Positions 14,857 to 55,400 of a stretch of 64,000 bases of DNA are shown in pieces; position 1 is the first letter of the stretch; each line of letters begins with the position of its first letter. Source of the stretch: Polytrichum commune (taxonomy: Eukaryota > Streptophyta > Polytrichopsida > Polytrichales > Polytrichaceae); the NCBI GenBank assembly GCA_950295325.1, contig OX485806.1:32612001-32676000 (forward strand), read 5' to 3'. Position numbers and translations under genes: made by a program. The notes below the pieces were generated by a model that saw only the letters and a list, made by a program, of their open reading frames with translations, was not told the origin of the DNA and made no database searches.

Positions 14857-14922
14857 CATTTGTTAGTGTGTAGAATCGGGTACGTTTGTTGGCTTGTAAT
14901 GTTTGAGTGATAAGGTGTACCG
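14857..14922 (-). pseudogene. Short LINE ORF2 fragment between two nested insertions
   Basis: Minus-strand translation continues the LINE reading (VHLITQTLQANKRTRFYT, then LTNACTL), matching intact ORF2 VWELRKLLVSSKKSRCFI, then LMNAGTF. It bridges the fragments at 25,837 and 13,885 and so proves that the two sides belong to one LINE copy. Confidence 0.8.
14919..14922. repeat. Target-site duplication of the gypsy element (low side)
   Basis: ACCG here and at 25,837-25,840 flanks TGTCG...GTGACA. Joining the flanks across one copy restores the LINE reading frame exactly (HNKAV then HLITQT). Confidence 0.85.
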
Positions 14923-15029
14923 TGTCGTGTAAACTAAGATCGTTAAACACAACAGATCGAGTGTCGGCGTCAACATCAATTAGCAAAATAAAATAGCAAA
15001 CTAAAATGCTAAACAACCACCTCTTCAAG
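14923..15029 (-). repeat. 107-bp terminal extension of the 3' LTR (copy 1)
   Basis: Appears identical to 15,469-15,575. It lies between the LTR-homologous block and the TSD, so it was part of the cDNA end at integration. It has no counterpart at the 5' LTR. Confidence 0.8.
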
Positions 15030-15466
15030 ATGAGGGTTTCTCTCTCCAAGCTTAAGAAACTAAAATGTCTCCTTACAAAGCTTAAGAAACTCTAAAATTC
15101 ACACACAAGAGTCAAGCTATCTCTCACTCCACGAAGGGAGAATCCAAGAGTGCAAGTGGTGGAGAAAGAATGCAAAGGCTTTACTCATAATCTACTACAC
15201 CATAGCCATGAGAAAGCAACAACAAGCTCTCTCTCTCTCAAAACACATTCACAAGACTTGACTTGACTTGACAACAATGGCAAGTCAAGAGGCATTCCTC
15301 TCCATACAACCCCAATCCTATGTGGAGTTCATCCATGGAGTGGATGAACAACTAACTAGGACTCCCAATGGAGTCCGTTACTCATCCCAACACACATGGA
15401 CTCCTAGTGGAGTCCATTTACTCCTAAATCGACGTGACTTAGCCCCCGATGTCACCTCACGTGACA
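15024..15466 (-). repeat. 3' LTR
   Basis: About 443 bp, near-identical to 25,392-25,836. On the minus strand it begins TGTCACGTGAGG. Its far end departs from the 5' LTR at ...CTTGA, where the 5' LTR has ...CTTGACA and this copy runs on into the 107-bp extension. Confidence 0.88.
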
Positions 15467-15468
15467 GT

Positions 15469-15575
15469 TGTCGTGTAAACTAAGATCGTTAAACACAACA
15501 GATCGAGTGTCGGCGTCAACATCAATTAGCAAAATAAAATAGCAAACTAAAATGCTAAACAACCACCTCTTCAAG
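15469..15575 (-). repeat. 107-bp internal repeat abutting the 3' LTR (copy 2)
   Basis: Second copy of the block at 14,923-15,029, located just upstream (in element sense) of the 3' LTR. A G-rich AGTGGGGG stretch lies immediately before it and may be the polypurine tract region. Confidence 0.8.
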
Positions 15576-16623
15576 TGCCCCCACTAGCCTCGGGGGGTGC
15601 ACCTTTCATTAAAACCTAGAATTACGTGCGTTCACTGCATACTCTAAAAACCCCCTATATACAAGTTATTTTTTGTGAAATAAAGTAATACACATACAAT
15701 TGCAACAATAAATATACAAGTGACAATATGTACACAAAAAAAAAATCCATTCATATATAGTTATTAACATAAGTATACAAATATACTTTTGAACAATAAT
15801 CAACCCCTATAATATGTATAACAAAATATCCTAGCTTTCATCAGCAAAGTCGTTGAAAACTTTTTCATCTCCTGGATGTAACTCATAAACATTTGATTCA
15901 CCAATATATGTCATTATAGCCAATGCAATTATTGTCTCTAAGTCTACCATCAAATGATCAGTAAGATCATATATCCACTTGTTGTTAGCCCCTTTTTGAT
16001 ACCAACATAAACCAATCTCCACGTTTGATGGACGGTCCATCAAGTCAATTGGATCCTTATACTCCACCCAACGATTACAAAACTTCCTCCGCATCCAATA
16101 TGAAAACTTATGATATGTAGTATAGTAACAATACCATACAAGTACAATTATTGTATAATTTTTAAAGGCCTTCCATATATGTACGTAATTATAAATTATA
16201 ACATGTATACCATATGTATACGTAATACGACAAGGTCCAAATCAATACCCCTCATGTGCACTCACGTATACTTGTACATGTTTAGTACAGTGCACCCCCC
16301 GAGCCACTAGCAGATAAGGAGCCCCTCCAATCGGCTAGGAACAAACACACTCATCGGTAGAGTTGTTGAACATGATGAAGTTGTTGCTACATCTATACAT
16401 ATTCAATTGGGTAGTAGTAATCTAAGGAATTAAACTCATGATTGAGAAAGTAATCTAAGAACTATAGGCTGGGTGCAATTTGAGCCCCATCCTTAATCGC
16501 CTTCAACCATTTATGTTGAATTCTTGGATAACTCTTTCAATGTGATTTTCAATCCCATAAAATTTCCAACCAACTAAATAACAACTTCACCACTAAAACA
16601 TGTGGTAAACATCCACAAAATCC
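15576..16623 (-). other. Gypsy 3' internal region, AT-rich
   Basis: About 1 kb between integrase and 3' LTR. Mostly AT-rich and non-coding except for the 87-codon ORF at 15,831-16,094. Confidence 0.5.
15831..16094 (-). CDS. Unrecognised 87-codon ORF downstream of integrase
   Basis: I do not recognise the family. The predicted protein starts MRRKFCNRWVEYKD and is acidic at its end (HPGDEKVFNDFADES). It lies between the PHD-tailed integrase and the 3' LTR, where some gypsy elements carry an extra ORF. It could equally be a captured host fragment or chance. Confidence 0.3.
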   Translation of the reverse strand: MRRKFCNRWVEYKDPIDLMDRPSNVEIGLCWYQKGANNKWIYDLTDHLMVDLETIIALAIMTYIGESNVYELHPGDEKVFNDFADES

Positions 16624-17832
16624 TCAATCATGACCATTAACGGCCACGGAATGAGAGGCTTTCCGACAACGAGGACAAACCCAATTGCCAGAAGGAAGAA
16701 TAAAAAAGGGAGGTGTCAAACATGCCATGTGCCATCCACGTTGACATTGGTCGCACAATAACATTGTTGCAGCCCCTTTCTTCTCTCCACAAACATAACA
16801 AGGCAGACCCTGTGGTACAACCGCCAACTCGGAATGCACAGAGCCGTCGATGGGAAGGTGACATGGAGCACAATTCTTTGAATGCTCACGACATTCCCGT
16901 CCATCCTTGCCTTCAAGCAATAATATACCACTTGGCAAGACATCTTTCACCCGCAAAATCGTGCGCCCAGCCTTGACATCCAATGTAGTAGGCGCCTCCC
17001 GTTGCAAGTAAACATAATCCCCCTTGGAAAATCTACGAACCTGAGGTCGATAAGCTCCACTGCGGATCCGGGCATACCGTAATGTATCACGATGTTGAGC
17101 AATATTTAAGTTCTCCATAGCCATAGGCATGGCCTTTTGGAAGAACGTTGCTCGGTCATGAAGACATTGAGCCCAAACATCTGGATCATCCAAGTTTACC
17201 ACGGGAGCCAATTTCTCTCACACCGAGCTAGGTAAAATTGGTTCCCGTCCATACAAGAGTTGGTAAGGACTATAGGATGCCAAAGATGCTTGCCTGCTGA
17301 AACGATAACCCATTGCTATCCATGGTAGCATCAAGTCCCAATCGCGATGGTTGCCATGAAGCAATCCATACTTCCGCAAACCGCGCTTAACCGTCTGAAC
17401 AACTCGTTCAGCTAAGCCATATGCCTCAGGGTGATCTCTGGAAGTTGTCCGATGATCAATCAAAGCCTTGGTACACAAAGCCTCGAAAGATCCAAGGAAT
17501 TCTCTCCCTTGATCCGTCAACACCTCTGCAGGTGCTCCAAACCGTGCCAAAACTCGATCAAGAAATGCCATAGCTGCCAATTCTGAGGAATTTTGGGGAA
17601 GAGCCACGAGTTCAATCCACTTACTAAAATGCCCCACCATCACAAGCACATACTTGGAACCACGTGGAGTGATAGTAAGCGGTCCGGCAAAATCCAAAGA
17701 CCAACGATATCCCAAGCCCATAATAGGTAAAGACTGAAGTTGAGGTGACAAAGTATTAAAACTTGACCTGACCCGGTCACATACTTCACACCGAGAAACA
17801 TAAGTGGCAACCTGTTGGTACATACCAGTCCA
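16624..17832 (-). pseudogene. Gypsy integrase with C-terminal PHD finger (two in-frame UGA)
   Basis: Same frame as RT. The zinc domain spans the first UGA (17,833-17,835): HEELGHFG lies before it and CEVC after. The core has LDFAGP, LTDQGREF and GLAERVVQ, supplying the D, D and E catalytic residues. A second UGA at 17,218-17,220 precedes the C-terminal part. That part has an SH3-like stretch (FSKGDYVYLQREAP, DVLPSGILLLEGKDG), then a C4HC3 PHD finger whose eight ligands are C138, C141, C153, C156, H161, C164, C179, C182 counting from the Met at 17,211. Gypsy elements more often end in a chromodomain. Here the PHD could guide integration to particular histone marks. That role is inference. Confidence 0.85.
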
Positions 17833-19767
17833 TCAATATTGGTTGCGCAACATAGAGTGTGTCCTTTGCACTCCAAAATGTCCAAGCTCCTCGTGCACTT
17901 GCCGCACCAAAGAAGCTATTTGATCTGGCTTGGGAACGATGCGCCTCGTTCCGTTCGGCCACACACGAAATAACAAGCCGTTTGCCCAACGAAACCTTGT
18001 TATCCGGTGACTAACTCTATCTCGCTCCATAGAAGATAGTCCAAAAGGAAATATCCCTTGTTGAAGTTTGTGCAAGACCGCCTGGTCTTCCCACACATCA
18101 CTAACAACGAGAGATTTATCAACCTCCTCATCTTGCTCTTCCACAAAGATTTCAGTAGCCAATCCCGACATCATTGTGAGATATGTGGCAACATGCCAAC
18201 CCGGTACTGCCTCACGATCACAATCTCCATGCCACCTGGCTCCAGTTAAATCCTCATCTGAAGGACTTGGATTGCGAGACAATCCGTCTGCATCTAAGTT
18301 GGCAATTCCTGCTCGGTGAACAACTTCAAAATCATATTCCTGAAGTAACAATGCCCACCTAGCAAGTTTTCCGGTGAGCTTATCTGATTCTATAAGCCAT
18401 TTTAAAGACTGATGATCAATCACCAAAGTAAACTTTTGCCCATACAAATAAGGTTGAAAATGTGCAATGGCCCAAACGGCCGCCAAGGCCTCGCCTTCAT
18501 AAGAAGAATAATTAGATTCAGCACTATTATTACTTCTAGATGCATAAGCCACCACATATTCCTTTCCCTCTTCATCTTTCTGTGTCAATACCGCTCCCAA
18601 TCCCACTGCACTCCAATCCGTGTGCAATTGAAAAGCTCTAGACACATCCGGGCGTCGAAGCACTGGCGCTGAACCGAGCCTCTGCTTCAATGTATCAAAT
18701 GCCTGTTGTTGTTCTCGACTCCAAATCCATGGTTGGTCTTTTCCCGTGAGAATGGTAAGAGGTTTGGCAATTAAACTAAAGTTTTTGACAAACCTCCCAT
18801 AATAATTTGCCAATCCTAGAAATGCACGAAGCCGTGGTACATCACTAGGTGCGGGAATTTTGTGCAAAGCATCCACCTTCGCTTGTTGCACACCAAGACC
18901 GCCAGGAACAATCATGTGGCCTAAATAGGGCAATTGATCATGGAAAAACTTACATTTTCCATGATGTAAACGGAGTCCCCACCGTTGAAGTCGTTCAAAT
19001 ACCGCTTGCAAATGTCTCACATGATCCTGTGGACTATTACTAAAAATGATAACATCATCAATGTAACATCTAGCAAACGGCAAACCAGCCAATAATTGGT
19101 CCATCACCCGTTGAAATTCAGCTGGTGCATTCTTGAGACCAAATGGCAGAAATTTCCAATGATAAAGTTGATCCTTGCCATCTTTATCAATTCCCCAAAA
19201 TGCGGTCTTCACCCGATCACCCAACAACAAAGGTAATTGGTGATAACCAGACCTCAAATCCAGAGTGCTGAAGATTATAGAAAATTCCAGTGCATCAAGC
19301 AACTCCTCCGGCATCGGCATTGGATATCGATCCGACTTGGTCTTGCGGTTGACTGGACGATAATCACCACACATCCGTTTTTCCGTCCAGTTGCCAAAGA
19401 TATCCTTCTTTGACGGCATAACCGTGGCACAAGCATACTCTCCATTGGAGAGTTCAATCAATTCCGCTGCCAATAACTCTTGACATCGAGTTTGAACATC
19501 CAACCTTTCAGATGTACTAAGTCTGTACGGCCGTCTGAAAATAGGGTGTTCGTCCTCGAGTTGAATACGAACAGGTTTACCTTTATATCCTTCAAGATCA
19601 TGAAGATTAAAGGCAAAACAATTACGGTAAGAGCGAATAAATGCCCGTACCTTTCGTGCTTTGGCACCAGTAAGCTTTAGCCCCACTTCAATTGGCCAAT
19701 CGTCAAACTCCGTGGTTTCCTTCTTCATAGAAGGATTGCCACTTGGTGCCAGTACAGCCTGTGATTG
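17833..19767 (-). CDS. Gypsy reverse transcriptase and RNase H
   Basis: Read in frame after the UAG at 19,768. Counting from Met at 19,728 (631 codons), RT motifs are MCGDYRPVN near 119-127, DLRSGYHQLPL near 157-167, FGLKNAPAEFQ near 196-206 and catalytic YIDD at 222-225. RNase H follows with TDWSAVGLGAVL, the E of YEGEALAAV and the D of VIDHQSLKWL, then a GIANLDADGLSR block before integrase. All catalytic residues are present. There is no obvious initiator context at 19,728, so translation probably comes from readthrough of the upstream DNMT frame. Confidence 0.92.
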   Translation of the reverse strand, partial: QSQAVLAPSGNPSMKKETTEFDDWPIEVGLKLTGAKARKVRAFIRSYRNCFAFNLHDLEGYKGKPVRIQLEDEHPIFRRPYRLSTSERLDVQTRCQELLAAELIELSNGEYACATVMPSKKDIFGNWTEKRMCGDYRPVNRKTKSDRYPMPMPEELLDALEFSIIFSTLDLRSGYHQLPLLLGDRVKTAFWGIDKDGKDQLYHWKFLPFGLKNAPAEFQRVMDQLLAGLPFARCYIDDVIIFSNSPQDHVRHLQAVFERLQRWGLRLHHGKCKFFHDQLPYLGHMIVPGGLGVQQAKVDALHKIPAPSDVPRLRAFLGLANYYGRFVKNFSLIAKPLTILTGKDQPWIWSREQQQAFDTLKQRLGSAPVLRRPDVSRAFQLHTDWSAVGLGAVLTQKDEEGKEYVVAYASRSNNSAESNYSSYEGEALAAVWAIAHFQPYLYGQKFTLVIDHQSLKWLIESDKLTGKLARWALLLQEYDFEVVHRAGIANLDADGLSRNPSPSDEDLTGARWHGDCDREAVPGWHVATYLTMMSGLATEIFVEEQDEEVDKSLVVSDVWEDQAVLHKLQQGIFPFGLSSMERDRVSHRITRFRWANGLLFRVWPNGTRRIVPKPDQIASLVRQVHEELGHFGVQRTHSMLRNQY

Positions 19768-19770
19768 CTA
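19756..19770 (-). promoter_or_regulatory. Predicted programmed UAG readthrough site (UAG CAA UCA)
   Basis: Minus-strand codons at the end of the DNMT frame are GAC TAG CAA TCA CAG. UAG-CAA-UCA fits the type I readthrough consensus UAG-CAR-YYA known from plant RNA viruses. The reading frame continues open and unshifted into RT. It would set the ratio of gag-protease-DNMT to full pol product. Confidence 0.7.
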
Positions 19771-21174
19771 GTCCGTGGAGAGGGCAACACCTTTGCCTCC
19801 ATCATCTGCACTTGAATCCAAATGCGTATCCTCTCCACTACAATCAGTTTGTGTAGCTAAATAGCTACCCACATATGAAGTATCACCAAAAAATAGAATT
19901 GGAAACATTTTATGGGCCTCCAACTTTCCAAACTCCTGGGCCAAAGCCGAAAAAACACGTTGAGCTCGAAGCTCTTCCGCAACATGTTGTTTCAAAGAAA
20001 ATAATTCCTCGGTGTCATTGACCTCAATGTGATCCTTGGATTGCGGCTCCATTGCCCCCTGACCATTGTTCTCTGCCCTCAGAGTAAACAATTGGTCATC
20101 CATACGTTGTTGAGCAGCAAGACAAATTCCAATCATCCACACAATGCTATTAAGATCCATAGCTTGCCCCAATAGAAAACGTCTCTGACCTTCCTGAAGC
20201 CCGTGAGCAGCCGTGGTACCTGTAAAAAAACCCATGGCGCGTTCCCGCTCATCTGCCGTAGGCTCCTCATAAGTTTGGGATTTTAAATCCCAAACCATGC
20301 CAGGTCCACGAGATCGAAATGCAAAAGACTGTGGATATGTCACAAAAGTAGGTAGTGCACCTCTCGGAATGCCCACCTTGTTAATTAATGCAAATGGCAA
20401 GGTATCATCCTTGGTAACTGCCAAGGAAACACGATGATCATCTAAAATGTTATCCACCTTGCGATCCATAAGGCGGGGAATGCGGGCAATCGCCGATGAA
20501 AGCACCCGAGGTGATACCAAGTTGGTCCAAAACCAACGAGGCCGATGAGCAAATGATCCCAAAGATGCAGCATCCAGAAATGTTGGAGTACCTAGAATTT
20601 GGTTAATGTACTCACCATCCTTCACCACTTTGTGCCGGGTATCACCCAATAATGGTACATTTTCGAAAATGTACTTTGGCGGAGTTGATTGGTGGATAAA
20701 CCACCATTGCGTCAATCGCATCAAATCCGCAAACAAACTAGACCTAGGATCATCCAATCCCTGGCCAGTTCCTGCCCGCGAATGACCTTGACAAGGCCAT
20801 CCTGCAATAATCAAATCCACGTGGCCCAACCTTCTCAAATCCTCATCACTAATCATAGTGACATCTTGAGGAAGTTGACCACAACATTCATGAATGGCAG
20901 AGGCTGACAATTGTGCGGGGTATCTCAACAACAATTGTTGGATGTGGTGTCGGACGGCTCTGTTGGCTGCATATCCATTGTCCACATGAATATATCGCCA
21001 AACTGTAATTCCAGCTTCCAACACTGCCGCCAAACCTGTGCCAATGCCTCCAAAGATCTCCACAAGGACAATACCTTCAGGTGATAGTTGCCAACGAATG
21101 GGTTGAGCAAAGAAAATGAGGATGAAGTTGGAGGTGCCTCTCCAAGCTCCAAATCCGCTACAATGTGTCGACAA
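19768..21174 (-). CDS. C5-cytosine DNA methyltransferase domain carried in gypsy pol
   Basis: A 468-codon frame with the C5-MTase motifs in canonical order: motif I EIFGGIGTGL at 39-48 (AdoMet binding), motif IV AGWPCQGHS with catalytic Cys128, motif VI FENVP at 170-174, motif VIII HRPRWFW at 210-216, and motif X LLGQAMDLNSIVWMI at 334-348. The target-recognition region lies at about 217-330. The stretch FLDAASLGSFAHRPRWFWTN resembles DNMT3/DRM-type enzymes, while PCQG is closer to DNMT1/bacterial forms, so I leave the subfamily open. It lies between protease and RT. The protease frame joins it by a shift near 21,125, so the Met at 21,174 may not be the start. A tail of about 110 residues without recognised motifs follows. 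All catalytic residues are present, suggesting activity. Confidence 0.93.
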   Translation of the reverse strand: MSTHCSGFGAWRGTSNFILIFFAQPIRWQLSPEGIVLVEIFGGIGTGLAAVLEAGITVWRYIHVDNGYAANRAVRHHIQQLLLRYPAQLSASAIHECCGQLPQDVTMISDEDLRRLGHVDLIIAGWPCQGHSRAGTGQGLDDPRSSLFADLMRLTQWWFIHQSTPPKYIFENVPLLGDTRHKVVKDGEYINQILGTPTFLDAASLGSFAHRPRWFWTNLVSPRVLSSAIARIPRLMDRKVDNILDDHRVSLAVTKDDTLPFALINKVGIPRGALPTFVTYPQSFAFRSRGPGMVWDLKSQTYEEPTADERERAMGFFTGTTAAHGLQEGQRRFLLGQAMDLNSIVWMIGICLAAQQRMDDQLFTLRAENNGQGAMEPQSKDHIEVNDTEELFSLKQHVAEELRAQRVFSALAQEFGKLEAHKMFPILFFGDTSYVGSYLATQTDCSGEDTHLDSSADDGGKGVALSTD

Positions 21175-21845
21175 TGGTCGGATAACTCCTTAGGAGTTCG
21201 CCATGGTGGAGGTGGATCCTTGACATGACGAGCATGAATTTGAAAAGATGGTAAAAATTGTTGTTCTGCCGCATTACAAGTGTAGTCCATTGTTTCCTCC
21301 AATAAAACTAGAGCACAAGGCAAATTTGCAACTGAACCGCTGCAACCAAACATTGCCTCCGCAACCATAGTCATAGCAGTGGCTGCAAATGTGACGGGAA
21401 TAAATACCTTCCTGCCATCTCCAGTGGACCATCCCGGTCTAATCCATGCCTCTTCCGTCCAATTATCCAAACCAAAGCCAAGTGGGTAAAGAGCTTGCTG
21501 ACCAACAAGTATATCATAGTTGGTAGCATTAGTAACAACACACTTCATTGACAAATGAGTGTAAGTAGGCCCTGCCCCCACATGAAAAATCAAACGTAGA
21601 GGTGCCTTGGTGTAACCTGTTGCATATTTAGTGCCCCCTATTGAAGTCACAATAGTGAATGGACAAGGATCCAAGCTTGCTGGCGTCAATCCAAGACTGT
21701 CGGCAAGTCCTTTGCCAATCATAACCGGTTGAGCACTGGAATCCATCATAACTCTCAGTGGTGTAGCACGGATAGTGGGCATATCCGTGCGTGAAACGAC
21801 AAACAAAGATTTGTCGTTCATCAGCCGTACAACTCCAGGTTGCAA
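21125..21845 (-). CDS. Gypsy retropepsin-like aspartic protease
   Basis: The frame opens at 21,845, overlapping the gag end by 25 nt in another frame, and stays open to 20,925, but homology moves into the DNMT frame near 21,125. The active-site loop reads MMDSSAQPVMIGKGLADSLG: Asp-Ser-Ser where retropepsins have Asp-Ser/Thr-Gly. Downstream YDILVGQQALYPLGFGLD is the usual ILG-type second signature. The Gly-to-Ser change may impair activity or be tolerated. Confidence 0.75.
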
Positions 21846-23864
21846 ATTATGCCGTTCGCGAGCAGGATTGCAGAAATGTCTGCAAGATATGCCGCTCCCG
21901 ACGCATAATTCGAAAATGACGTATCCACTGCTGAAATTGATGCTGGAGGAATATCAGTTTGCTTACCAAATGCAATGATCGCCGCATCCACAAGACTCGC
22001 TCGCAAATTGGCTAAGTCCTCCAACTCCTCAGCCACAGGTACGTCAACCACAGCTTGGGATACTTGAAGGGATGGCAAATCCGCCTTACCTTCTAACATT
22101 CTCCCAGCTGAATGAAAAACTGCAGCAGGCTTGAAATCCGAAGCCATAAACTCCGAACCCGAGAAAATTGGCATATGGAGAATTTTATATGCCAATGTCT
22201 GCGTAACATCCTTCGAGATGGAATCCCCATCTCTCAAAGGTACAGGGTTTTTAGCCCCAACAACAGTGGTGTCTACCAATCCAAACGAAAGAGGTAAACG
22301 TGCTTGACCAATTTGATCAGCTGGTCCGGCATGGCGAGGATGTAGCACCTCATTGCTACCACCACTCGTGGAAGCCACCGCATCTGCCAATGTTTGTGAG
22401 CGAATAGACGCCGCCGCTACCACCTCTCCAGTTGCTCCAAACATATACATGTCCGAACCCGAGGTGTGACCACCCACATGCGGCTCAGAAATTTGAGCAA
22501 AAGATGCAGAAGATTTGAGCTTTTGCTCAAGCTCTGCCACCTTAGCCTCAAGACTCTGCTCCCTTGGAGACTTTCCAGTGACATAACTGGCAGGACGCAT
22601 CTCAGGATGAAGTTGGAAACAATGATCCACATCGTGATTAGTGCCACCACAATGGTTACATTTCAATTGTCTCTTCTTAGAATTGTCCCCTGCTTTTCCT
22701 GGTTCCATCTTTTGTTTTAATTTTCCCAAAGGCTGAGTTTTCTTCTTCTTAGGACAATTGGGATCATTCTTCGAATGACCAGCTTCTCCACAACCCCAAC
22801 AATGCAAAATCTTTTGCTCCTTGACGGGTTGAGTCTCAGCTAAACTACTAGTAGCTGTGACAATTCTTCTTGGTTTCGGACTCTCTGTCATCCAAGATAC
22901 CATATCCGTGGCATCATGTTGGCAAAGAGCCCGATCACATTTCTCAACCACGGCAAACGCTTGTGCAAGCGTAGCTCGGCCCTCGTAGTCGAGGATAATC
23001 CGAGGTGATGCCAACTCAAGTAGCCGCTTGTCAATCTTAGACAAAAAGATTTTAACAAGCTGACTCTCAACAAAAACACCTCCCGACTCCACAGCAAATT
23101 GCGCGAGTCGCGTATACATGGTCCGTGGAGTATCATCCTTCTCTCGGCGGAAATCCTGGATGCGCTACATCTGGTCTCGCCGAAACCCACCATACTCCAC
23201 TTCCAAATGTGCGACAAATTCAGTAAGGGGATTAAACGGAGGTGGTGGACCAACAGCCGTCAATGCTGCCTGTGTAGCACGTGCCACCCGTGAAAGGGTT
23301 GCCGTGCTACTGCTAGCCACCATTGGCCCAAGTGCCAGTTCCGTGTCCTTAGACTCCGCCGGTGATTCCTCCTCATTTAAGGTGGGTGGAGCTAAGGTAG
23401 CAATCGCCCCATCCTTAAGGGCTGAAATGAGCTCAACCCGAGCCTCCCAATACTGCTCCACCTCCCGAAAGTTGTCGCTGATGACCCTCTGTCCAGCGTT
23501 CATAAGTTTGGAGTGCCTCATACTCCAAATGTTGAGGCAGAAGTTCAAAGGCATACCAATCATTGAAATTGGAAGACCTTTGGCGTTTCTCCTTAATCCA
23601 GGTACGAAACCGGAGTTTCCAATCGGGCAAGGAAATGCCCCCAGCTCGACCTGAAAACCGATCACGCACTGAATTGTGGCGATCGTCCTCCATTTCGTCG
23701 AACGTGCCGACACTCCAAATTTGAAGCCTACTAGTAGTGTCCAACGCCGAAATAGGCTCAAAAGCCTCGTTGGTATCTACCTCTGGCTCAAGATTTGTGG
23801 TATGCACGTCCTCCAAGTAATTTGGTGATGGAGATCGATAATATCGGCTCCTAGTTTGCACCAT
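21821..23864 (-). pseudogene. Gypsy gag (capsid and nucleocapsid), frameshifted
   Basis: Starts MVQTRSRYYRSP at 23,864. The first frame runs through LEYEALQTYERW, then must shift near 23,490 into the frame of NFREVEQYWEARVELI. An in-frame TAG at 23,165-23,167 interrupts before MYTRLAQFAVESG. The C-terminal part (432 codons from 23,119) carries two zinc knuckles, CWGCGEAGHSKNDPNC and CNHCGGTNHDVDHC, a basic linker, and a likely coiled coil (LEAKVAELEQKLK). It ends at 21,821. Role: virus-like particle assembly and RNA packaging. Confidence 0.82.
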
Positions 23865-25391
23865 AAAATAATCACTTGAGTACCTGCAACTATCTACAAG
23901 GTAATGGCAACCTGCACCTGTTGCGGGCTATCTAAATGGCAATCCCTTGCCAAATGCCAAGTGTTTATGCCCCCAGAATTCCAAAATTGTGCAAAGGTTT
24001 GAGATTGGTAATTAAAATGAAAAATCAGCGTTGAAAAGGCTCATTTCCAAGGTGATTATGGACTCCAATCAACAAACTAAGTGCACCAATGGACTCCTAG
24101 GAAGATTTCACACAAATTAGGCTCAAATTTCACTCCATTCGGAGTTAATTTGCTCCCAAAAACAAAAATCAGCGTTGAAATTAATAATTTCAGCAATGAT
24201 TTTGAATTCCAATCAACAATCCAATTACACCATTGGATTCCTTGGCAAATTTCACACAAGATAGGCTCAAATTTCACTCCGTTCGGAGTTAATTTGCTCC
24301 CAAAAACAAAAATCAGCGTTGAAATTAATAATTTCAGCAATGATTTTGAATTCCAATCAACAATCCAATTACACCATTGGATTCCTTGGCAAATTTCACA
24401 CAAGATAGGCTCAAATTTCACTCCAATCGGAGCTAGTATGCCCCCAAATTTGAACCTCAAAGTTTGTGAGAATTGGATGCCAAGTTTGAAAGGTGAAAGG
24501 AAAAATATGAAAATAAAATAAAATAAAAATATTTGTTTTAATTAAACAAAATAAAAATAAAAATAAACTTAATTAACTTAATTAACTTAAATGAATTAAC
24601 TTAAATAATTTAATTTAACTCAACCTAACTTAATTAATTTAAACTAATGAACCTAACCTAATTAAGCTAACCTAATTTAATTAACTAAGTTAATTAATTT
24701 AATTAAGTTAACTAGCCTAATTAAGTTAATTAAGTTAATTAAGTTAACTAGCCTAATTAAGTTAATTAAGTTAATTAAGTTAACTAGCCTAATTAAGGGA
24801 GGCTTACCTTGAAGCCGCCATGGAGCCGCAATTTAAGGGGGGGCCAAGCTGGCGCCGCCCGCCACCTTGGCTAGGCTGTCGCCCGCCCGCCCCCGGCCCG
24901 GCCCGCTGCCACCTCGCCGCGGGGCCCGGCTGGCGCCGCCCGCCCGCCCCCGGCCCGTGATTAGGCGCCCCCGGCCCGGGATTTTGCCGCCCCCGGGTGC
25001 AGAATTGGAGCTCCATGAGCTCCAGGAGCTCCAAGAGTGTCCGTGGAGCTCCGGAGCTCAAAAAAAATTATAAAAATTCGGATTGTAAGTTTGGTTTGTG
25101 TTTGTTTGTAAATTTAAAAAAAATGAAACTTTGCTTTTACAAATTGCAAGCAAGAATAATGTGACTTGAGAATCTTGAGACCAAATGGAATCTCAAGATT
25201 CAACCATCAACACTTGAAGAAAACACAAAGAGACAACAAAAGAAAAATGGGAAGATTTCTCTCAAAATCTTCTTGAGGGTTGCAAGAAATGACAAACTAA
25301 GCTTTCAAACACTTGTATCACTCATTTGCTCTCAATACTGGGCCATTCTAGCTCAGAAATACAACCAAAAAATGAAAAATTTGAGCATTGT
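23865..25391 (-). other. Gypsy 5' leader: tandem repeats, AT block and GC block
   Basis: Between 5' LTR and gag. It contains three copies of a 144-bp repeat (about 24,040-24,460), a TTAAT-rich block with TAATTAAGTTAAC repeats (about 24,525-24,800), and a very GC-rich CGCCC/GGCCC block (about 24,826-25,000). A primer-binding site should lie just below 25,392 on the minus strand (ACAATGCTC...), but it does not match the usual initiator-Met tRNA complement. Confidence 0.7.
24040..24460. repeat. 144-bp tandem repeat, three copies
   Basis: Landmark TTTGCTCCC/ATGCCCCC recurs at 24,151, 24,295 and 24,439, a 144-bp period, with AATCAGCGTTGAAA in the first two and a partial copy upstream. 144 is a multiple of three, so it stays open on both strands. 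I take the resulting ORFs as artefacts. Confidence 0.85.
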
Positions 25392-25836
25392 TGTCAAGTA
25401 TGAGGGTTTCTTTCTCCAAGCTTAAGAAACTAAAATGTCTCCTTACAAAGCTTAAGAAACTCTAAAATTCACACACAAGAGTCAAGCTATCTCTCACTCC
25501 ACGAAGGGAGAATCCAAGAGTGCAAGTGGTGGAGAAAGAATGCAAAGGCTTTACTCATAATCTACTACACCATAGCCATGAGAAAGCAACAACAAGCTCT
25601 CTCTCTCTCAAAACACATTCACAAGACTTGACTTGACTTGACAACAATGGCAAGTCAAGAGGCATTCCTCTCCATACAACCCCAATCCTATGTGGAGTTC
25701 ATCCATGGAGTGGATGAACAACTAACTAGGACTCCCAATGGAGTCCGTTACTCATCCCAACACACATGGACTCCTAGTGGAGTCCATTTACTCCTAAATC
25801 GACGTGACTTAGCCCCTGATGTCACCTCACGTGACA
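25392..25836 (-). repeat. 5' LTR of the gypsy element
   Basis: 445 bp with TGTCA...TGACA ends. Plus-strand ends are TGTCAAGTATGAGGG and CACGTGACA. It contains the element promoter by position. Followed directly by the ACCG duplication and the LINE sequence. Confidence 0.9.
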
Positions 25837-27206
25837 ACCGCTTTATTGTGGCGAGCAATTCTGAGTCCCTTTAGGTATGGGTGTTCGCACATGGATAGTA
25901 GGTGGGGCCATGTGTCTCTGTTGTTACGGTGGCATAGTGTGCAGTTGGGGTTTTGGAATCTGAGTGGCCAAAATATGTTTTTTCTATGGTTGCCCATGTA
26001 CTGGGCATATCTGAATTTTAAGGTTTGGGTAATTTGGGCGTCCGTTATTTTATATGTTTTTAAGGTTTATTTGTTCATTGGATAGCCATTTATCGACACA
26101 TGGGAATTTGATTTGGGCCATCCTTACTTCTATGTTGTCGTGTGCTTTTGTAATAAATGTGTGTAAATTCCTAATGGCTCTGTCGTATGTGGCTGTTGGA
26201 CAGCTTGCTAGCCAGTAGGGTGTGGTGTGGGCTAGTTGTATGTGGGGTGTGGCGGATGGTTTTTCCTTAAGTGTCCTTTCATTGGCTAGTGTGTCAGCTA
26301 TTTCGTTTCCCATTATGCCCATATGAGTCCTTACTTTATGAATGTGTATTGAGTACAGAGTCCAGAAGATTTGATGGATTATGGCTGCTATAAGGAGCTT
26401 ATCTGGATGGTGGTGTTGTGAGGTTGGGTGTTGAATGTGATTGTTGATTGAGTATATGTTGTTGAGGTTGTCTGTGAATATGTGTGTGTCAGTTTGGGTG
26501 GTTTGGATGGCGATGAGTATGGCGTTCAATTCTGCTATGAGGATGTTTGGGTACCTTGGTAGTCTTTCTAATATCCGGATATTGTTGTTGGGGCTATATA
26601 TTCCAGATCCTGCGGTGTTGCCTACTATTTGGCCCTCAAAGTTTTTAGAGGGGGAATAAATGACCCGTCTGTGTATATGCAGTGGTGTGGGTGGTATTTG
26701 AGAGGGTGTTGGTGGTAGTATCTAGTTGGCAGGGCTATAGGGGGGGTGGTGTTTGGTGTAGGGGTGTTATTTATGGGTGCATTTTTCCACGCGTTTGAGA
26801 ATTTAATGTGGTAGTTTGGTGTTGTGGGGTTAATGGGGAAGGTGTCTATGTGTGTGTTAGTTGCTTGTTTTAATACGTGTGATAGATCTCGTGGGGTTTG
26901 TGGGATTAGTGTTGGGTTGGACTGGCTATGTATGCAAATTATTGATGTGAGTGATGGTTCTACATATTGGTGGTATTTTGGCCATTCTGGCGTGGGGTTA
27001 TATTGTATGGTGTGTGTGGGGGGGATGGTTGCGAGCGTGTGTATGTCGGCATTCGTAGTAAGTGAGATTTGTTGTGATGTCCAGTCATTATGGTTAATTA
27101 TGAGGATGGTGGTAGTTTTATATCCTCTTTGGCTGCCATTCTGGCCTAGTGGATGGCTTCGACTGTCGTGTGATGATCTGTGGGGTATGCTATGCCGGTA
27201 CCTTGC
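25837..27206 (-). pseudogene. LINE ORF2 fragment with RNase H domain
   Basis: Minus-strand pieces in shifting frames. Landmarks: a block ending KTTTILIINHNDW near 27,110, YTDGSFIPP (RNase H start), AELNAILIAI-type E motif, FTDNLNNIYSI, VRTHMGIMGNEIADTLA (RNase H end), then QYMGNHRK, a CTLCHHRNRDTWPHLLSMC finger and RHNKAV. They align in order with the intact LINE at 57.5-58.95 kb. Several frameshifts show decay. Confidence 0.85.
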
Positions 27207-27220
27207 CACAGTCCTGGACA

Positions 27221-29843
27221 TATATGAGTCACAAATTTACAATCCTTTCTTTCCATCATCCTTCCTCAATGGGGAAGTTGAGACCATAGTTTTGACAATT
27301 GTGAACTGCAAGACCTCTAAACATCACTCAGATAGAGTGTTGTAGAGGGACTCATCTCTCTTTGTCCATAACCAATCATTTATTCAATAGTGGAAAGGTT
27401 ATCAAAACTCATCACACTTATTCAACCATGGAGGCGGCGTCATATCATCTCGCATGATGTCACTATAAGAATTGGGTTCCTTACCACTAGTTCACTTCCG
27501 CTGGGTTGATTTCCAGCGGTTGAATAAATGTGGATTGAAAATCTCTTGTTGTAGTAGATCATAAAAGCATCTAGTGGAAGTGAAGCAATGGTAAGGAACC
27601 ACGATTTCCGGAGTATTCACATGTTATATCCATGAGCTGATTGGCTATGATAATCACCTCGAGTAGGTGGATGATTGACCACTTCTACGGCTCGTCATCT
27701 GGCCTCCTCTTGTTTGTTGTCTAATCTTTAGTTTATTGGGATAGGTCGCTGGTGACTCACCATGCAAAACTCCACGGAATGCTACGAGTAGTGTTTGCAA
27801 AGGTTGAACAACTAGTCCCAACCACTCATCATAATTCACATCTTGGTTCACCCTTGTAGATTCTTGTCTAAAGCGAACATGGAACCTTTGAAATGAGAAC
27901 CTAAGATCAATTTTGGACACACCTAGAGGTTAGAATCAACATTGTCAAATTTTATTGTTTGTTATTGTCACCTATGTGGTCCAAAAACTACACTTCTAAG
28001 ATGTGTTAAAATCATCTTTCAATCATCACTAAGGCCCAACCAAATTTTAGGTTTAATCCAAAAATGGTGATTGTGACCAGATGCTTCAAAGGACAATTAC
28101 TGGTCTATTTACTATAGTAAGGGGAATAATCTCCTACCACATCCTCACCAATGTATTACGTGAAAATGAATGCACATGATGATATTCCATGTGTATAATA
28201 TGTCATTTCCCAACCAATAGAGGACTCTTGCCATGTTTCGAACTCCTCACATGTTCTTCCTAGCTTGTAGACTATATATATCAGCTAAAGAGTACACCAA
28301 TTTTGGTATTTGGTGATGGCAATAAATATGTAGTGTGGATTAGCATGGTTGCCACACATGTGCTTTGCACAGCTCCTCAAACAAATAAATCACTAAGCAA
28401 TCCTTATATGTCCATAAGCAAGTGTCCGATTATAATAATCCACACTATTTTGAAGCCACCCACACTAAATTTCATATTAATCATTATAGTTCAACAAAGG
28501 TGGCACCCAAATTGTGCTGCTTTGGTTGAGGAAGTGGTTGAGATTCTGAGGTGGTGATGGCACACAACGTTCTCGTCAAATTTCTTGCAAAGGTTTGTAA
28601 ATCATTGCAACAAAACATCTTGGAAACATATCTTCCCTCAACTTATTGTTTCTTGACTTCTCAACTGTTATAAAATCCAAAATGCTTTTCAGATCCACTT
28701 CTGAACAGTCACTTGTGACGAACATGTGATAACTGTGAGGTATTGCACAAGTCGAGCCCCAATTGAAAGTAAACATTATTGAATCAGATGACCAGATAAA
28801 TCAAACTCAAATTTACCGCCGATATTCACTCACATCATGACACAATTGCTGTACATAAACAGAGGTTCCAGATTCCTCAAATGATGTAGTGACATTGCTT
28901 CTTATAATCTTAGCAATACTGTATATTCATTGTCATAGCTCTGTCACATGCATGTCTGATCTGAAAGTAATTTTCTCACCATCAATCTACTTCATCTCAC
29001 AAGGTTTGCTCCAGTGTTGGTATGGTATCATCTTTTGCTTTTTTATACCACTGGGGATCTATAATGAGAATTTTACATTTTTTGCTATCAGTAGGGTATG
29101 AATATTTGACAGTATTTTTGTTGTTGATATCATTCGGGTCTAGATATACCATGCAACTATAAGTTCATACCTAGGCAATATTGTCTTAGTATCAATGTGG
29201 TGAAGAGTGGTCTAGACCCAAATAATAAATCATGTATACAGAGATTATCTCATTGATACACCAACCAAATATGAAAAATTTGAGTGATATTACAATGTCG
29301 ATGATACCTGCAGGTTCGATAAATTAATCAATGATACAAAAACTTGCAAAATCGGAGCCATGAGGATGAACTCTTGGACAATCAAAGCTTTGCTTTGAGA
29401 GCAACAAAGTGAATGCAATGTCGTGTCATCTCTGTCTGATTTAAAGGCAACACTTTTTTTTTTTTTTTTTTTTTTTTAATCACTTTTGAACTTGTGATGG
29501 AATCCTCGCAATCTCTTTATTCAGTCGTATGAAACGCTTCCATCCAAATAAATAAATGTTTTGTCACTCCAGTGATGAACTAGTAGCCTCACTCCTACCT
29601 ATGGTACTTCTCAATTGTTACAACTCTGTGTTTTCGTCGGGTGTTGTCTGAATCGACACATGATAATTATTTTTGGTCAAGACCATGCTCAATCTAACGT
29701 GGAGATCAGCTTTCGGCACTCGAAGTGTTGAACCAGACAGCACCCTGCGGTATGCATGTCTCTGAAACTTGAGATTCTCTCGACATCAATATTTGAGCCC
29801 AGAAGCTGATGTCTGGAAACTATCAAAACCAACTAACACTCAT
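27221..29843. other. About 2.6 kb without a recognised gene
   Basis: Short ORFs only. A pure poly(T) run of about 25 bases lies near 29,453-29,477, possibly an old poly(A) tail of a minus-oriented insertion whose body I could not identify. The 3' UTR of the minus-strand GH5 gene should occupy the stretch just below 29,844. Confidence 0.5.
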
Positions 29844-31348
29844 TCACCTCGAGAGGCTTGCACATGGGTCGGGTTTATAAGCCAGCGTGGGGTCGGTGGT
29901 GTTTATGACGCCCGCTTCCACGGCCTGTTGGTAACCCCATCGCCAGTCGTTCTTCCCGCCGATCCAATTCACCTTATACGACCAGAACACCCAGCCCTGC
30001 TGCTTCTCGTAGCTGTCCAATTGGGCTCCGAACCAGCTGTGGTACCAAGCCACCGCGTCAGCCGCTGTGATGTCGAATTCGCTCGACTCGCCGTAATCGG
30101 GCATCAAGCTCCACTCCCCGACGATCACAGGCGAGTTTGATCCGCCGATGTCCTCGTAGCACGAGTGGTACATGTAATCCCGCCGCGTGGGAGGCACGTA
30201 ACAATTGGGTTTACAATTGTTCCCGTCGTAAGCCCGGTAGTTGTGGTCGTCGTAAAGTGCGAAGCTCAAATCCAGGCCGGCCAAGCCTTGGGTCGGGTCC
30301 CCTCCTCCTTGCGACCACCGTTTGTCCATCATTTGGATGTGGAGCCTCGTGCTTGACGGAACCTGGTGTTAAATGTTGATGAAACCCTGATCAGTTGTTT
30401 GTACATCTATGTAGGTAGTTAATAATTAAGATAGGAAATCAACCTGAGTCAATCAGGTTCCGTCATAGGATGGGATACATTGTGCTTAGCATCTAATAAT
30501 CTGTATAATATATATCCTCTCTCTTCAAAATCTAACTGAATACCATCTTTTGATCACACCGTCATTCTTCTCACCTGGAGGTCGTCCTCCACCGCACGGA
30601 TCCGGTTCCAAGCGGTCGGGTAGTACTCGTAAAACAAGCTATGGACCTCGGAATTGCCATCGGGCACGGGCTCATTAACGATTTCAATGGCGCCCACATT
30701 GCTGAAATTTTCGTTCGTGTGAACAACTTGGGTCATCCACTCCAGCCACTGATACGCCCTCTCGTAATTCGAAGTTTGGAAGAAGCCGACCGGGTCGACC
30801 GACTTCCCCGTGAACTGTTGGTTCGGGGACTGCCCCCCAGGCGCGGCATGGAGGTCGAGGATTACATATAAATTTGCGTCTCTTGCCATCTGGCACAAGC
30901 TCTCGAGGTACGAAAACCCGCCTTGCGGGAACGCCTCGCCCGATTGCACGAGGCTCTCGTTCATCCAAAACCCGAGCGGGACTCGGATCGTGTTGAGCCC
31001 GTAGCCTTTGATCCTGTTGATGTCGTCTTTGGTGATCCACGAGTTCCAATGCCTCTGGAACGCCACGTTCGCAGCCGTTTGCCCCAGCGCTTGGACGCAA
31101 CTGGACTCGTCATGGTAGCCGCCGCAACCCATGTTGTTCCACTCGTCCATCATCATCCACGGTTCCACAATGAACAACCCGCCCAAGTTAACTCCCCGGA
31201 TTTTGTCATTCCCATTGTTTGGGAGCCATGCATTGGCAGCCCAGAAAAGATTACATACAAGGACAATGACAAGGAGGAGGCCAAGAGTTGCAAACTTGAC
31301 TCTCGAATGCTCGTGACGTCTCACGGCGGGTTGGACTCGAGCCCTCAT
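29844..31348 (-). CDS. GH5-family exo-beta-1,3-glucanase-like protein, two exons
   Basis: Exons 31,348-30,575 and 30,362-29,844, phase-0 GT-AG intron, 430 residues. Predicted to hydrolyse beta-1,3-glucosidic bonds at the cell surface or wall. An N-terminal hydrophobic segment (about residues 19-40, LLLVIVLVCNLF) serves as signal peptide or anchor. Then IRGVNLGGLFIVEPWM, the signature opening of this family, and GLNTIRVPLGFW, DLHAAPGGQSPN, the acid/base Glu in IEIVNEPV, DDHNYRAYDG (exon 2), the nucleophile Glu in VIVGEWSL and a late GWVFWSYK. Both catalytic glutamates are intact and the length is normal for GH5_9-like proteins. Exons are GC-richer than the surroundings. The plus-strand 261-codon ORF is an antisense shadow. 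Confidence 0.9.
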
Positions 31349-51859: not shown

Positions 51860-52429
51860 ATGACATACAACGACCCGGTTATACGTAACAATATAATAGT
51901 ATATCTTAATACTAAAAAATACACAAAAAATAATAAGGTATTTATAAATACCACCAAAAATATAGGAAAAATCATCCCCAATACACCACAAAGCATTAAC
52001 AAAAATCATAACAACAAACCCTACAGACCGCATACAACTAAAACACCAAAACCCTCTATCCAAACAAACATAATTGGAGCTCGGCCTACCGGCCTCGCAC
52101 AAAACATATACAAAAATAACAACAAAATGAAATACCATAAGATAGATAAACTAGATAAGGTAAAAAAGAACCCGAATATGAACGACAAAAATACAACAAT
52201 ATACTCTAAAAGAAACATAAAACATAAAATACTTACAATAACCACCCCTTATATCAACAACATACACCGCACAATAAATGGGAAAAAACCGCATACACCC
52301 AAACTAAATACTAAACACCTAACCAAGAAATACATAATGCATAACACTCAACCATTTAGAAATACCAAACACCAAAACATAAAGACAAAAAACATAAAAA
52401 ACTATATATATATATATATATATATATGA
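51860..52429 (+). CDS. Lys/Asn-rich linker ORF between LINE ORF1 and ORF2
   Basis: 190 codons beginning two bases after the ORF1 stop. Very rich in Lys, Asn, Thr, Ile and Pro. It ends in a (Tyr-Ile) run encoded by the (AT)n tract and overlaps the ORF2 ATG by four bases in a different frame. No domain. It could be a basic nucleic-acid-binding protein, the N-terminus of ORF2 separated by a slip in the (AT)n tract, or a compositional artefact of the A/C-rich strand. Confidence 0.4.
   Translation: MTYNDPVIRNNIIVYLNTKKYTKNNKVFINTTKNIGKIIPNTPQSINKNHNNKPYRPHTTKTPKPSIQTNIIGARPTGLAQNIYKNNNKMKYHKIDKLDKVKKNPNMNDKNTTIYSKRNIKHKILTITTPYINNIHRTINGKKPHTPKLNTKHLTKKYIMHNTQPFRNTKHQNIKTKNIKNYIYIYIYI
52405..52427. 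repeat. (AT)n microsatellite at the linker/ORF2 junction
   Basis: About 11 AT units immediately precede and form part of the ORF2 start (ATATATGAAAAAT). Because units are two bases long, a change in copy number moves the linker frame relative to ORF2. Confidence 0.9.
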
Positions 52430-55400
52430 AAAATAAGTCCAAAATAAAAAACCTACACAATATTATTCAAAACATACTTCTTAAAAGTGGGGACATAGAA
52501 CTAAACCCAGGACCTATGCCTAATGTATTAAAAGAACATCCACCGGCACACAGATCTAGATCCAAAACATACTTCATACCAAATACAATAAAACTTCATC
52601 CTGAATACCAACACATCACACAAACCTTCTCACCACTACTAAATACAAACCACTTCAACCACAACAATGCCTCTAGAACATTTCCTAACCTTTCATCATA
52701 TATTAACCAAAAAAGACACTACCCAACACCAAATATCTTATTTGCACTAATCACAACCATAGGCCCAAACATAGATACATGTGAATACCTCATCCATAAT
52801 TTAAACCCGGATTGGACCTCTTTATTGCTAACAAAACTAAGCGCCCTAAGAAATCCCCCTGAAAATCACATTAATACCATACACCCACACATCCAAATAC
52901 TACAAGATAACCAAGATATAATAAACCCACCAAATACCATACATGAAAAAATTTACAAATACATACACCAAAACCAGGATCCACCAAACATTGAAGCACT
53001 AAGTAATCAATTCCCATACCTACCGATAAACTTTCTTAAAGAAACACTGAAAATATTTGAACCCCTAACTGAATACACACATCCTCCACCTACACCACCA
53101 CTACCCCAGCCTCCACCGCCACATTATAACCAAAGTATTAATCACCACACCCAAATCATAACATGGAATGCATCATCACTAAACACAACACTACCTAACA
53201 TACAAAACATTATATACCATCCACAAGAAAAACCAGCTATAATAACCATACAAGAAACAAAATTAACAAAAACTAAATCAACTAAATATATACAAAACTT
53301 ATTTCCAGAATATAAGCTAATCTTTAACAACACACATACACTAACAAGATGCATTCAACAAAGGATACCATATACTCCAACCAGAGGGGGCCTCCTTACA
53401 CTCGTAAACAAAAAATATGCATTCCAAGGAAACATTTCCAAAATACCTTCCCCTGCCAACATATCACCATATCTACAAATTATCCATATTAAAAACAACC
53501 CACTAAAACCATGGTTACTACTTCATATTTATATGCCATCACACGAAGAAGACATCAGATTAATCCCAGACATAATACACACTATAAAAACACAAATAAA
53601 TGCACACCCAAATCATACACATACCTTATGCGGAGACTTTAATCGAGACATTGCACTAATAGGTCGACAAAATGAACATGGTACCACCCCCCCACAAGAA
53701 GAAGACATTAGATGGAGAACCTTTATAGATAGTCTAGCCCTCGCTTATATCCCTACTAACACCACATATTCTAGACAAGGAGGAAATAATTACACGCATA
53801 CTAGTCTAATTGACGGTTTTTACACCAACACACAATATGCAACAACATATACATCAAGAACATTACAAGAACAAAATCTAAATTCTGACCACCTACCAAT
53901 CAGTTTAGAAATACCACCTAACACCCTGATAGCCCGAGCAACACAACCCACAATCCCTACATCAACTAGAATTCTAAATCCCATTCCACAAGACAAAATA
54001 GATAATTTTAATACCAAGTTTTTCGAAGAAAATGCAATCCAACTTAATGAAATAACCACCCTGCTATCTAAAGAGCACCTAACACCAGACCAATGGCAAC
54101 AAGCATGTACTCAAATGAATAATATCACCCAAATAATAGCTCAAAACATTGAAGAAACATGTAGTGCCACACCTATACCCACCTTAACCAATAGAGCCAG
54201 TCAACAAGGTGGCTACTTACCCAAAAAAACCCAAAAAATATGGAAACAACACATAACAACCTACCATCTAATTAGGAAAACTATATACATCACAAAAAAC
54301 CTACCAAATTGGCGTACACACCCAATCATGAACACATTAGGACAATATAGCCGAATACACATTCCGTCCCCACCTGAAGACGAAGCCCTAATAAATATAT
54401 GGATCAAAGAAATAGCAGTAATAGCCAAAACAGCAAATTTACAAGCTAGAAAAATTACTACTAAATACACTAAAGAATGCATTAAGAAGGCCATATCCAA
54501 ATACAGAAAATTGTACGAAACCAACCCAAAAAGAATAAACAGAAAAATATTTAAAAATCTTGAGTCCCCACCACTAGATTGCATCACGGATCGTAACAAC
54601 AATATACTCACAAATCCAGAGGACATTGCAAATGAAATATACATACAACAAACCCTTAGTAACAAACCCGCCGTACCCACATGCTACTACTTATCAAAAC
54701 ACCCCCCTAAATGCACGTGCGCAGTTAGACAATATCCATGGCACGACCTAGAAGGATTGGTCCTAGAAAAACGAGGAGACCCACACACACCCTTATATAC
54801 ATACCTAGACTTAGAAACATATAACCTTTGCCTCAAAAATCTAGCAAACAACAAAACTCCAGGCCCAGACAAAATTCCCAATTCCATATTAAAAAATATG
54901 CCTAAAAAATTCCAGTACATACTATTCTTGTTTTTCACACATTGTTACAAACAAAAACAAATCCCGACCTCTTGAAAAACCAGCCTCACAATATTGCTAT
55001 ACAAAAAAGGAGACCCCTCCTTATTATCTAATCACAGACCAATAGCACTCGCTAACACCATATATAAATTCTTTACAAGCACCCTAACATTCATACTCTC
55101 AGCATATGGTGAGAAACATCAAATATTACAAGACAGCCAAGAGGGATTCAGAGCAGAACGGTGCACATCAAGACAAATACAAACACTAATAGCAGCACTA
55201 GAAGATGCCCAATTCACCAACCAAAATATTTATTTACTCTACATTGATTTCAAAAATGCATTCGGATCAATATACCATGCAAGACTATTAGCCATTATGA
55301 AAGATTTAGGATACCCAGAAGACGCAGTCCAAATAATTGGTAATATATATTCACACTCCAACACCACCTTCTCTAGAGAATATTTCGGCAGAACAAAAGA

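Follow-up and report, generated by a model that had tools for sequence, protein, structure and literature searches.

Cytosine methylation usually silences transposons. What, then, does a retrotransposon do with a cytosine methyltransferase (DNMT) of its own? The question is raised by a Ty3/gypsy-type element at positions 14923–25836, minus strand, of the window, which is the 64,000-nucleotide stretch of the Polytrichum commune genome that was analyzed (contig OX485806.1, positions 32,612,001–32,676,000). The minus-strand ORF at 19768–21174 (468 aa) contains a complete C5 cytosine methyltransferase (Pfam DNA_methylase, E 1.8e-12), with motifs I (FGGIGTGL), IV (PCQG), VI (FENVP), VIII (HRPRW) and X (RRFLLGQA) in the usual, non-rearranged order. 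A preliminary description had placed a complete DNMT inside the pol gene, with the protease on one side and the reverse transcriptase (RT) on the other. The neighbors are confirmed, as the protease lies upstream and the RT downstream. The assignment to pol is not, because in open-frame copies the Gag-protease ORF, upstream of the stop codon, terminates with the DNMT; by this reading of the frames, the enzyme precedes the stop together with Gag and is not strictly within pol. The coding features of the window copy are as follows.

21821–23864, minus strand: Gag region with broken frames (ORFs 23433–23864, 23165–23761 and 21821–23119) and two CCHC-type knuckles recognized by eye; the frame is unbroken in other copies.
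20925–21845, minus strand: aspartic protease region, active site DSSA in the window copy, assigned from motif counts and the Asp_protease_2 match of a related copy.
19768–21117, minus strand: DNMT3-like C5 methyltransferase with a C-terminal tail, the homologous part of the ORF, assigned from Pfam, the PDB match to DNMT3A and 91 scored genomic copies.
19762–19770, minus strand: probable recoding stop UAG-CAA-UCA between ORF1 and ORF2, in the same context in families A and B and in L056 (all described below).
17833–19728, minus strand: reverse transcriptase and RNase H (PF00078, 1.6e-30; PF17917, 5.6e-37).
17218–17823, minus strand: integrase core (rve; PF00665, 1e-13), its frame broken from that of the RT in the window copy.
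16624–17211, minus strand: C-terminal part of the integrase with a PHD finger at the end (about 16666–16800; PF00628, 2e-10), which bears out the PHD tail described earlier.

The order protease-RT-RNase H-integrase (rve) is that of Ty3/gypsy elements, an assignment made from Pfam matches and not from an RT tree. No Pfam match for Gag was found in the window copy or in a related copy, and none for the protease in the window copy; Asp_protease_2 is matched in the related copy at E 5.5e-4, below Pfam's cut-off, and the protease active site reads DSGA in 35 of the 38 readable copies. In open copies, ORF1 (1386 codons) encodes Gag, protease and DNMT, and ORF2 (1047 codons) encodes RT, RNase H, integrase and PHD, with the integrase joined to the RT within this one frame. 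ORF1 and ORF2 lie in the same frame and are separated by a single stop. Full-length relatives of the window copy are present in the genome: among 19 further 9-kb copies of its family (family A; L010–L028), ORF1 has 1386 codons in 14, ORF2 has 1047 codons in 10, and both are full in 7, counts that are not genome rates since these copies were picked mostly for long frames. The window copy has frame breaks in Gag, upstream of the DNMT and in ORF2; read from its sequence, it is a young, defective member of the family, perhaps mobilized in trans. Its 5´ leader contains, at 24014–24806, a 144-bp unit repeated three times in tandem (24014–24445), followed by a TTAATTAAG-rich stretch.

The extent of the methyltransferase was set by comparison with its genomic relatives. 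The match begins at residue 18–22 of the window ORF in 89 of the 91 scored copies, and only two, that of the window and one other, match from residue 1; by this comparison, the N-terminal end of the ORF at 19768–21174 is frame noise. The best PDB match to the window DNMT sequence is DNMT3A (E 9.2e-8), and among proteins of solved structure DNMT3A and DNMT3B are its closest relatives. A profile of 13 DNMT copies ranks DNMT3A first (7.1e-12), followed by HaeIII (3.6e-6), DRM (1.3e-5) and HhaI (2.8e-5), with DNMT2 at 0.04 or worse in the same comparison. The assignment of the element DNMT to the DNMT3 family is nevertheless not secure, because a bacterial-type methyltransferase (L055) scores as well as DNMT3A in direct comparison with the window DNMT (59.3 and 59.7 bits, respectively) and outscores it in comparison with the DNMT of L056. 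L055 was the sole match (36% identical) to the 13-copy alignment in a scan of viral contigs and was rejected as a distant methyltransferase that is no relative of the element; a scan of viral contigs with one DNMT copy as the query gave zero matches. An AlphaFold2 model of the window DNMT alone had a mean pLDDT of 32 and was set aside.

The host genome contains a domains-rearranged methyltransferase, recognized from its motif order (L039), as well as a distinct DNMT3-like gene with several exons (L057); together with a plastid contig (C8, 146,561 bp), whose psbA matches a plant-like query at 97% and whose psaB does so at 94%, they point to a streptophyte. The element DNMT scores 16.5 bits against L057 and 49.5 bits against human DNMT3A, and this distance leaves no sign that the domain originated from that host gene.

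The element is one of many. A protein search of the host genome (407.8 Mb in 64 contigs, of which the seven largest hold 406.1 Mb) gave 733 candidates, of which 91 were scored, with 88–100% identity throughout; the match is stop-free in 40 of these, lies within a 1386-codon open frame in 24, and satisfies both in 15. A degenerate pattern for GWPCQGH has 258 exact hits in the genome (139 + 119), compared with 0 for the reversed pattern, which excludes chance. A genome search with PF00145 (123 scored of 353 candidates) revealed a further family, B; its DNMT is about 55–61% and its protease region about 53–56% identical to that of family A. Copies found through PF00145 or the motif pattern are biased towards those that kept motif IV, and L027, which contains a stop, was omitted from the protein alignment.

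A third lineage was found outside the moss. The sole locus matched by the 13-copy alignment among bacterial and archaeal genomes, L056 (CADCWO010000201.1), is a 9285-bp soil-crust metagenome contig filed under an uncultured Synechococcales cyanobacterium bin, with ends that overlap by 127 bp, as would result from the assembly of a circle. Its plan is that of family A, with long open frames, an ORF2 that is 88% identical and a DNMT that is 64% identical to those of family A. L056 is probably a eukaryotic sequence that contaminates the published cyanobacterial bin.

These three lineages, whose DNMTs are only 60–64% identical, allow the selection on the domain to be estimated. Between family A (27 copies) and family B (11 copies), the catalytic part of the DNMT has a dN of 0.295 and a dS of 2.6, which is near saturation; the dN/dS is 0.112 (bootstrap 0.081–0.182), and that of the RT is 0.040. 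The bootstrap range of the DNMT dN/dS between L056 and family A is 0.053–0.129, with dS saturated and capped. Within families, where post-insertion decay is included, the DNMT ratio is 0.40 (0.29–0.57) in family A and 0.32 (0.25–0.42) in family B, compared with 0.17 and 0.22 for the RT; this weaker constraint counts against the explanation that we favor below. All 39 copies read retain the catalytic Cys (in PCQ) and Glu (in ENV), a count biased by motif-based finding; loss of the catalytic residues in relatives is not what was observed. The two Arg of motif VIII are kept in 38 and 39 of the 39, respectively, and motifs I and X vary in a few. By these ratios, the DNMT is under purifying selection between three diverged lineages, and the element methyltransferase is conserved and probably functional.

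The same data bear on two alternatives. The domain could be a host gene captured by chance and carried as a functionless passenger, as the several breaks in the window copy might suggest. This is scarcely credible: a capture confined to one copy is contradicted by the 91 scored copies and the 258 motif hits, the domain occupies the same place in three diverged lineages with a dN/dS near 0.1 between them, and the multi-exon DNMT3-like gene of the host is distant from it. Purifying selection would also fit an enzyme that restrains the element itself, by limiting its copy number or rapidly silencing new copies, and thereby lessens the damage to the host, as de Mendoza et al. propose for such elements (PMC5890265). 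The hundreds of copies and very recent insertions indicate that spread has not been stopped, and we consider this role rather improbable.

The position of the DNMT draws attention to the stop codon that follows it. Of 22 distinct family-A copies, 21 have the stop context TAG-CAA-YCA and one has TAA-CAA-TCA; the context is TAG-CAA-TTA at 8 of 8 loci looked at in family B, and TAG-CAA-TCA in L056. A separate automated extraction of the context from 38 loci missed 9, of which L015, L019, L025 and L041 show TAG-CAA-YYA on reading and L028 shows TAA; L029, L033, L036 and L037 were left unread at that place. UAG-CARYYA is the readthrough context of tobamoviruses, and the element likewise has UAG followed by CAA-UCA, CAA-CCA or CAA-UUA between in-frame ORFs, a likeness limited to a match of sequence context. 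The recoding signal noted in the preliminary description is thus found as UAG-CAA-YYA in both families and L056, and the UAG between ORF1 and ORF2 is a probable readthrough stop. Downstream of the stop, the folding of the RNA does not stand out in three copies of family A (z −0.7 to −1.5), and three copies of family B fold somewhat more strongly (z −1.6 to −2.6), relative to shuffles that preserve base composition only; the weak structure in family A counts against an explanation based on readthrough. A search of open-licence papers found none that brings CARYYA together with Gag and retrotransposons.

Because the DNMT precedes the stop, it would be made at the Gag level and packed into the particle. 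Gag-protease-DNMT would be the main product, and RT and integrase would come from a smaller readthrough fraction. The DNMT within the particle would methylate the element cDNA before or at integration, such that the new insert arrives pre-marked, and the PHD finger would tether the integrase to histone H3 tails and may guide integration. That this is a Ty3/gypsy family with a Gag-level DNMT that is packed in the particle and methylates its own cDNA before or at integration is our favored explanation, and our confidence in it is evenly balanced. We argue that the mark helps the element, since the DNMT is encoded together with the coat protein and is under purifying selection between diverged lineages.

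The PHD finger could also be taken to mean that the target is host chromatin around the insertion site, with a PHD-bearing integrase that brings the complex to H3 tails and a neighborhood that is silenced or made tolerable. The PHD ends ORF2, and its PDB relatives (CHD4, PHF12, DPF2, PHF21A, KDM5 and UHRF1) read H3 tails. The DNMT and the PHD are, however, encoded on separate ORFs, with the DNMT in the Gag-level product, which makes this target unlikely in our judgment.

A trace of self-methylation was looked for in the form of CpG depletion and was not seen, the observed/expected ratio being 0.65–0.79 in the element versus 0.46–0.64 elsewhere in the window. This speaks against CG self-methylation, although young copies may show little decay. 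Undepleted CpG would suit an enzyme that modifies or chaperones the element RNA instead of DNA. The fusion of the DNMT to a zinc-knuckle protein points in the same direction, as the zinc knuckles of Gag bind RNA, and C5 enzymes are able to act on RNA, as the DNMT2 family does. Against an RNA target, the solved DNA methyltransferases (DNMT3A/B, HaeIII and HhaI) rank far above DNMT2 in the profile comparison, and we regard such a role as quite improbable. For the favored explanation, methylation of cDNA by a particle-borne enzyme, the Gag-side position points to particles as the first place to look; long-read methylation data would offer a direct test, since a single assembled genome contains many recent copies whose ends are known.

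How the element integrates was examined from its ends. The near-identical LTRs of the preliminary description are near-identical but are not simple LTRs: in the window copy and four others, two repeats, A and B, are arranged as A-coding-B-A-B. The terminal features of the window copy are as follows.

25837–25840, strand not assigned: target-site duplication CGGT on the 5´ side, matching 14919–14922.
25401–25836, minus strand: 5´ terminal repeat A, 436 bp, which starts with TGTCACG and ends with CCCTCA; 2 mismatches to the 3´ A repeat, with a start common to four other copies.
15578–15585, minus strand: putative polypurine tract AGTGGGGG, directly before repeat B.
15469–15575, minus strand: internal copy of repeat B, 107 bp, identical to 14923–15029.
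15031–15466, minus strand: 3´ copy of repeat A, 436 bp, compared with the 5´ A repeat.
14923–15029, minus strand: terminal copy of repeat B, 107 bp, which ends with CACGACA and is identical to 15469–15575.
14919–14922, strand not assigned: target-site duplication CGGT on the 3´ side, matching 25837–25840.

Outer ends of the form TGTC...GACA and 4-bp target duplications are present in five of the five copies with both ends read, the duplications being CGGT in the window and CATC, GAAG, TTAT and ACTT in the four others. The 5´ and 3´ A repeats differ at 2 of 436 positions in the window copy and at 0 of 430, 1 of 430 and 0 of 259 in three other copies; the insertions are therefore recent. The purine tract occupies the same place in L014, L019, L020 and L024, and a similar tract is found in L056. 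The internal B/A joint reads GACA-AC-TGTC in the window and GACA-GC-TGTC in L014, L020, L024 and L056, such that the joint GACAGCTGTC is kept in the soil-crust relative. Inspection by eye revealed no tRNA primer site starting with TGG directly after the 5´ A repeat, and Pfam matched no tyrosine recombinase in ORF1 or ORF2 of one copy, in which the rve integrase is present.

Priming from the purine tract would yield B-A-coding-B-A, of which the observed A-coding-B-A-B is a circular permutation. A two-repeat circle opened by the DDE integrase at the palindromic B/A joint would produce the observed order. We put forward tentatively, as possible rather than probable, the combined scheme in which a DNMT made in Gag amounts marks the cDNA inside the particle and integration follows a route unlike that of ordinary LTR elements, through a circle opened at the B/A joint. 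If true, one system would combine circular intermediates like those of DIRS elements with an integrase of the retroviral type and DNA that is methylated in advance.

Several further features were observed at the ends and around the element. In a copy near 48.36 Mb of contig C5 (ends L050 and L051), the A repeats at either end of the element include a further, incomplete A unit of ~138 bp in tandem. In its 3´ untranslated region, the window copy has a 715-bp insert (15589–16303), which shows inverted ends of 14 bp (CTCGGGGGGTGCAC) and a duplication of 8 bp (GCTAGTGG); the insert is missing from the same place in L014, L019, L020 and L024 and looks like a small non-autonomous DNA transposon. The DNMT element is located in an apparent LINE fragment (25837–27221; RNase H PF00075, E 2.4e-6, at 26050–26529). 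Elsewhere in the window are a minus-strand glycosyl hydrolase family 5 gene (30554–31348 and 29844–30332; PF00150, E 1.4e-12), which we take to resemble exo-beta-1,3-glucanases, and a LINE-like element (52426–59526) with endonuclease, RT, RNase H and a PCIF1_WW domain (PF12237, E 1.6e-9, in the ORF at 56560–59526). PCIF1 is a cap adenosine methyltransferase, and this element may represent another methyltransferase-type domain in a retrotransposon.

Retrotransposon-borne DNMTs have precedents in dinoflagellates and Klebsormidium, as the preliminary description had stated and PMC5890265 confirms; some DNMT3 members are also placed in retrotransposons of streptophytes and dinoflagellates in PMC12344493. 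No Gag-side DNMT before a readthrough stop was found among the titles and abstract openings of open-licence papers, preprints excluded. The nearest relative in plan is KnitGypsy-Dnmt3 of Klebsormidium nitens, which shares Gypsy domains, a DNMT3-type C5 methyltransferase, a DIRS-like repeat structure and purifying selection on the DNMT (PMC5890265). Its DNMT is described within the Pol polyprotein ORF, whereas that of the present element ends the Gag-protease ORF before UAG-CAA-YYA; this division of the ORFs is taken from the text of the paper alone, and the real difference may be smaller (PMC5890265). Readthrough and a PHD finger, both features of the present element, are unmentioned in the text of that paper. 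In the same paper, the K. nitens Gypsy DNMT showed no activity in yeast, a result its authors call inconclusive, whereas de novo methylation of CG in yeast is reported for two Symbiodinium (K. kawagutii-type) DIRS DNMTs (PMC5890265).

SymbioDIRS-Dnmt3 and SymbioLINE-Dnmt of Symbiodinium are likewise C5 DNMT retrotransposons with hundreds of copies, and the split repeats A-coding-B-A-B, by which DIRS elements are described, are common to SymbioDIRS-Dnmt3 and the present element (PMC5890265). The Symbiodinium elements are, in contrast, DIRS elements with a tyrosine recombinase, or LINEs, and the element described here has a DDE (rve) integrase and 4-bp target duplications. A transposon-borne DNA methyltransferase is also found in algal DNA transposons with ParB and DNA methyltransferase accessory proteins, which differ in being DNA transposons and in their enzymes, predicted to act on N4-cytosine or N6-adenine (PMC12477816). 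One green alga and dinoflagellates are thus already known to have DNMT-bearing retrotransposons, and the layout of the present element looks like a new version of them.
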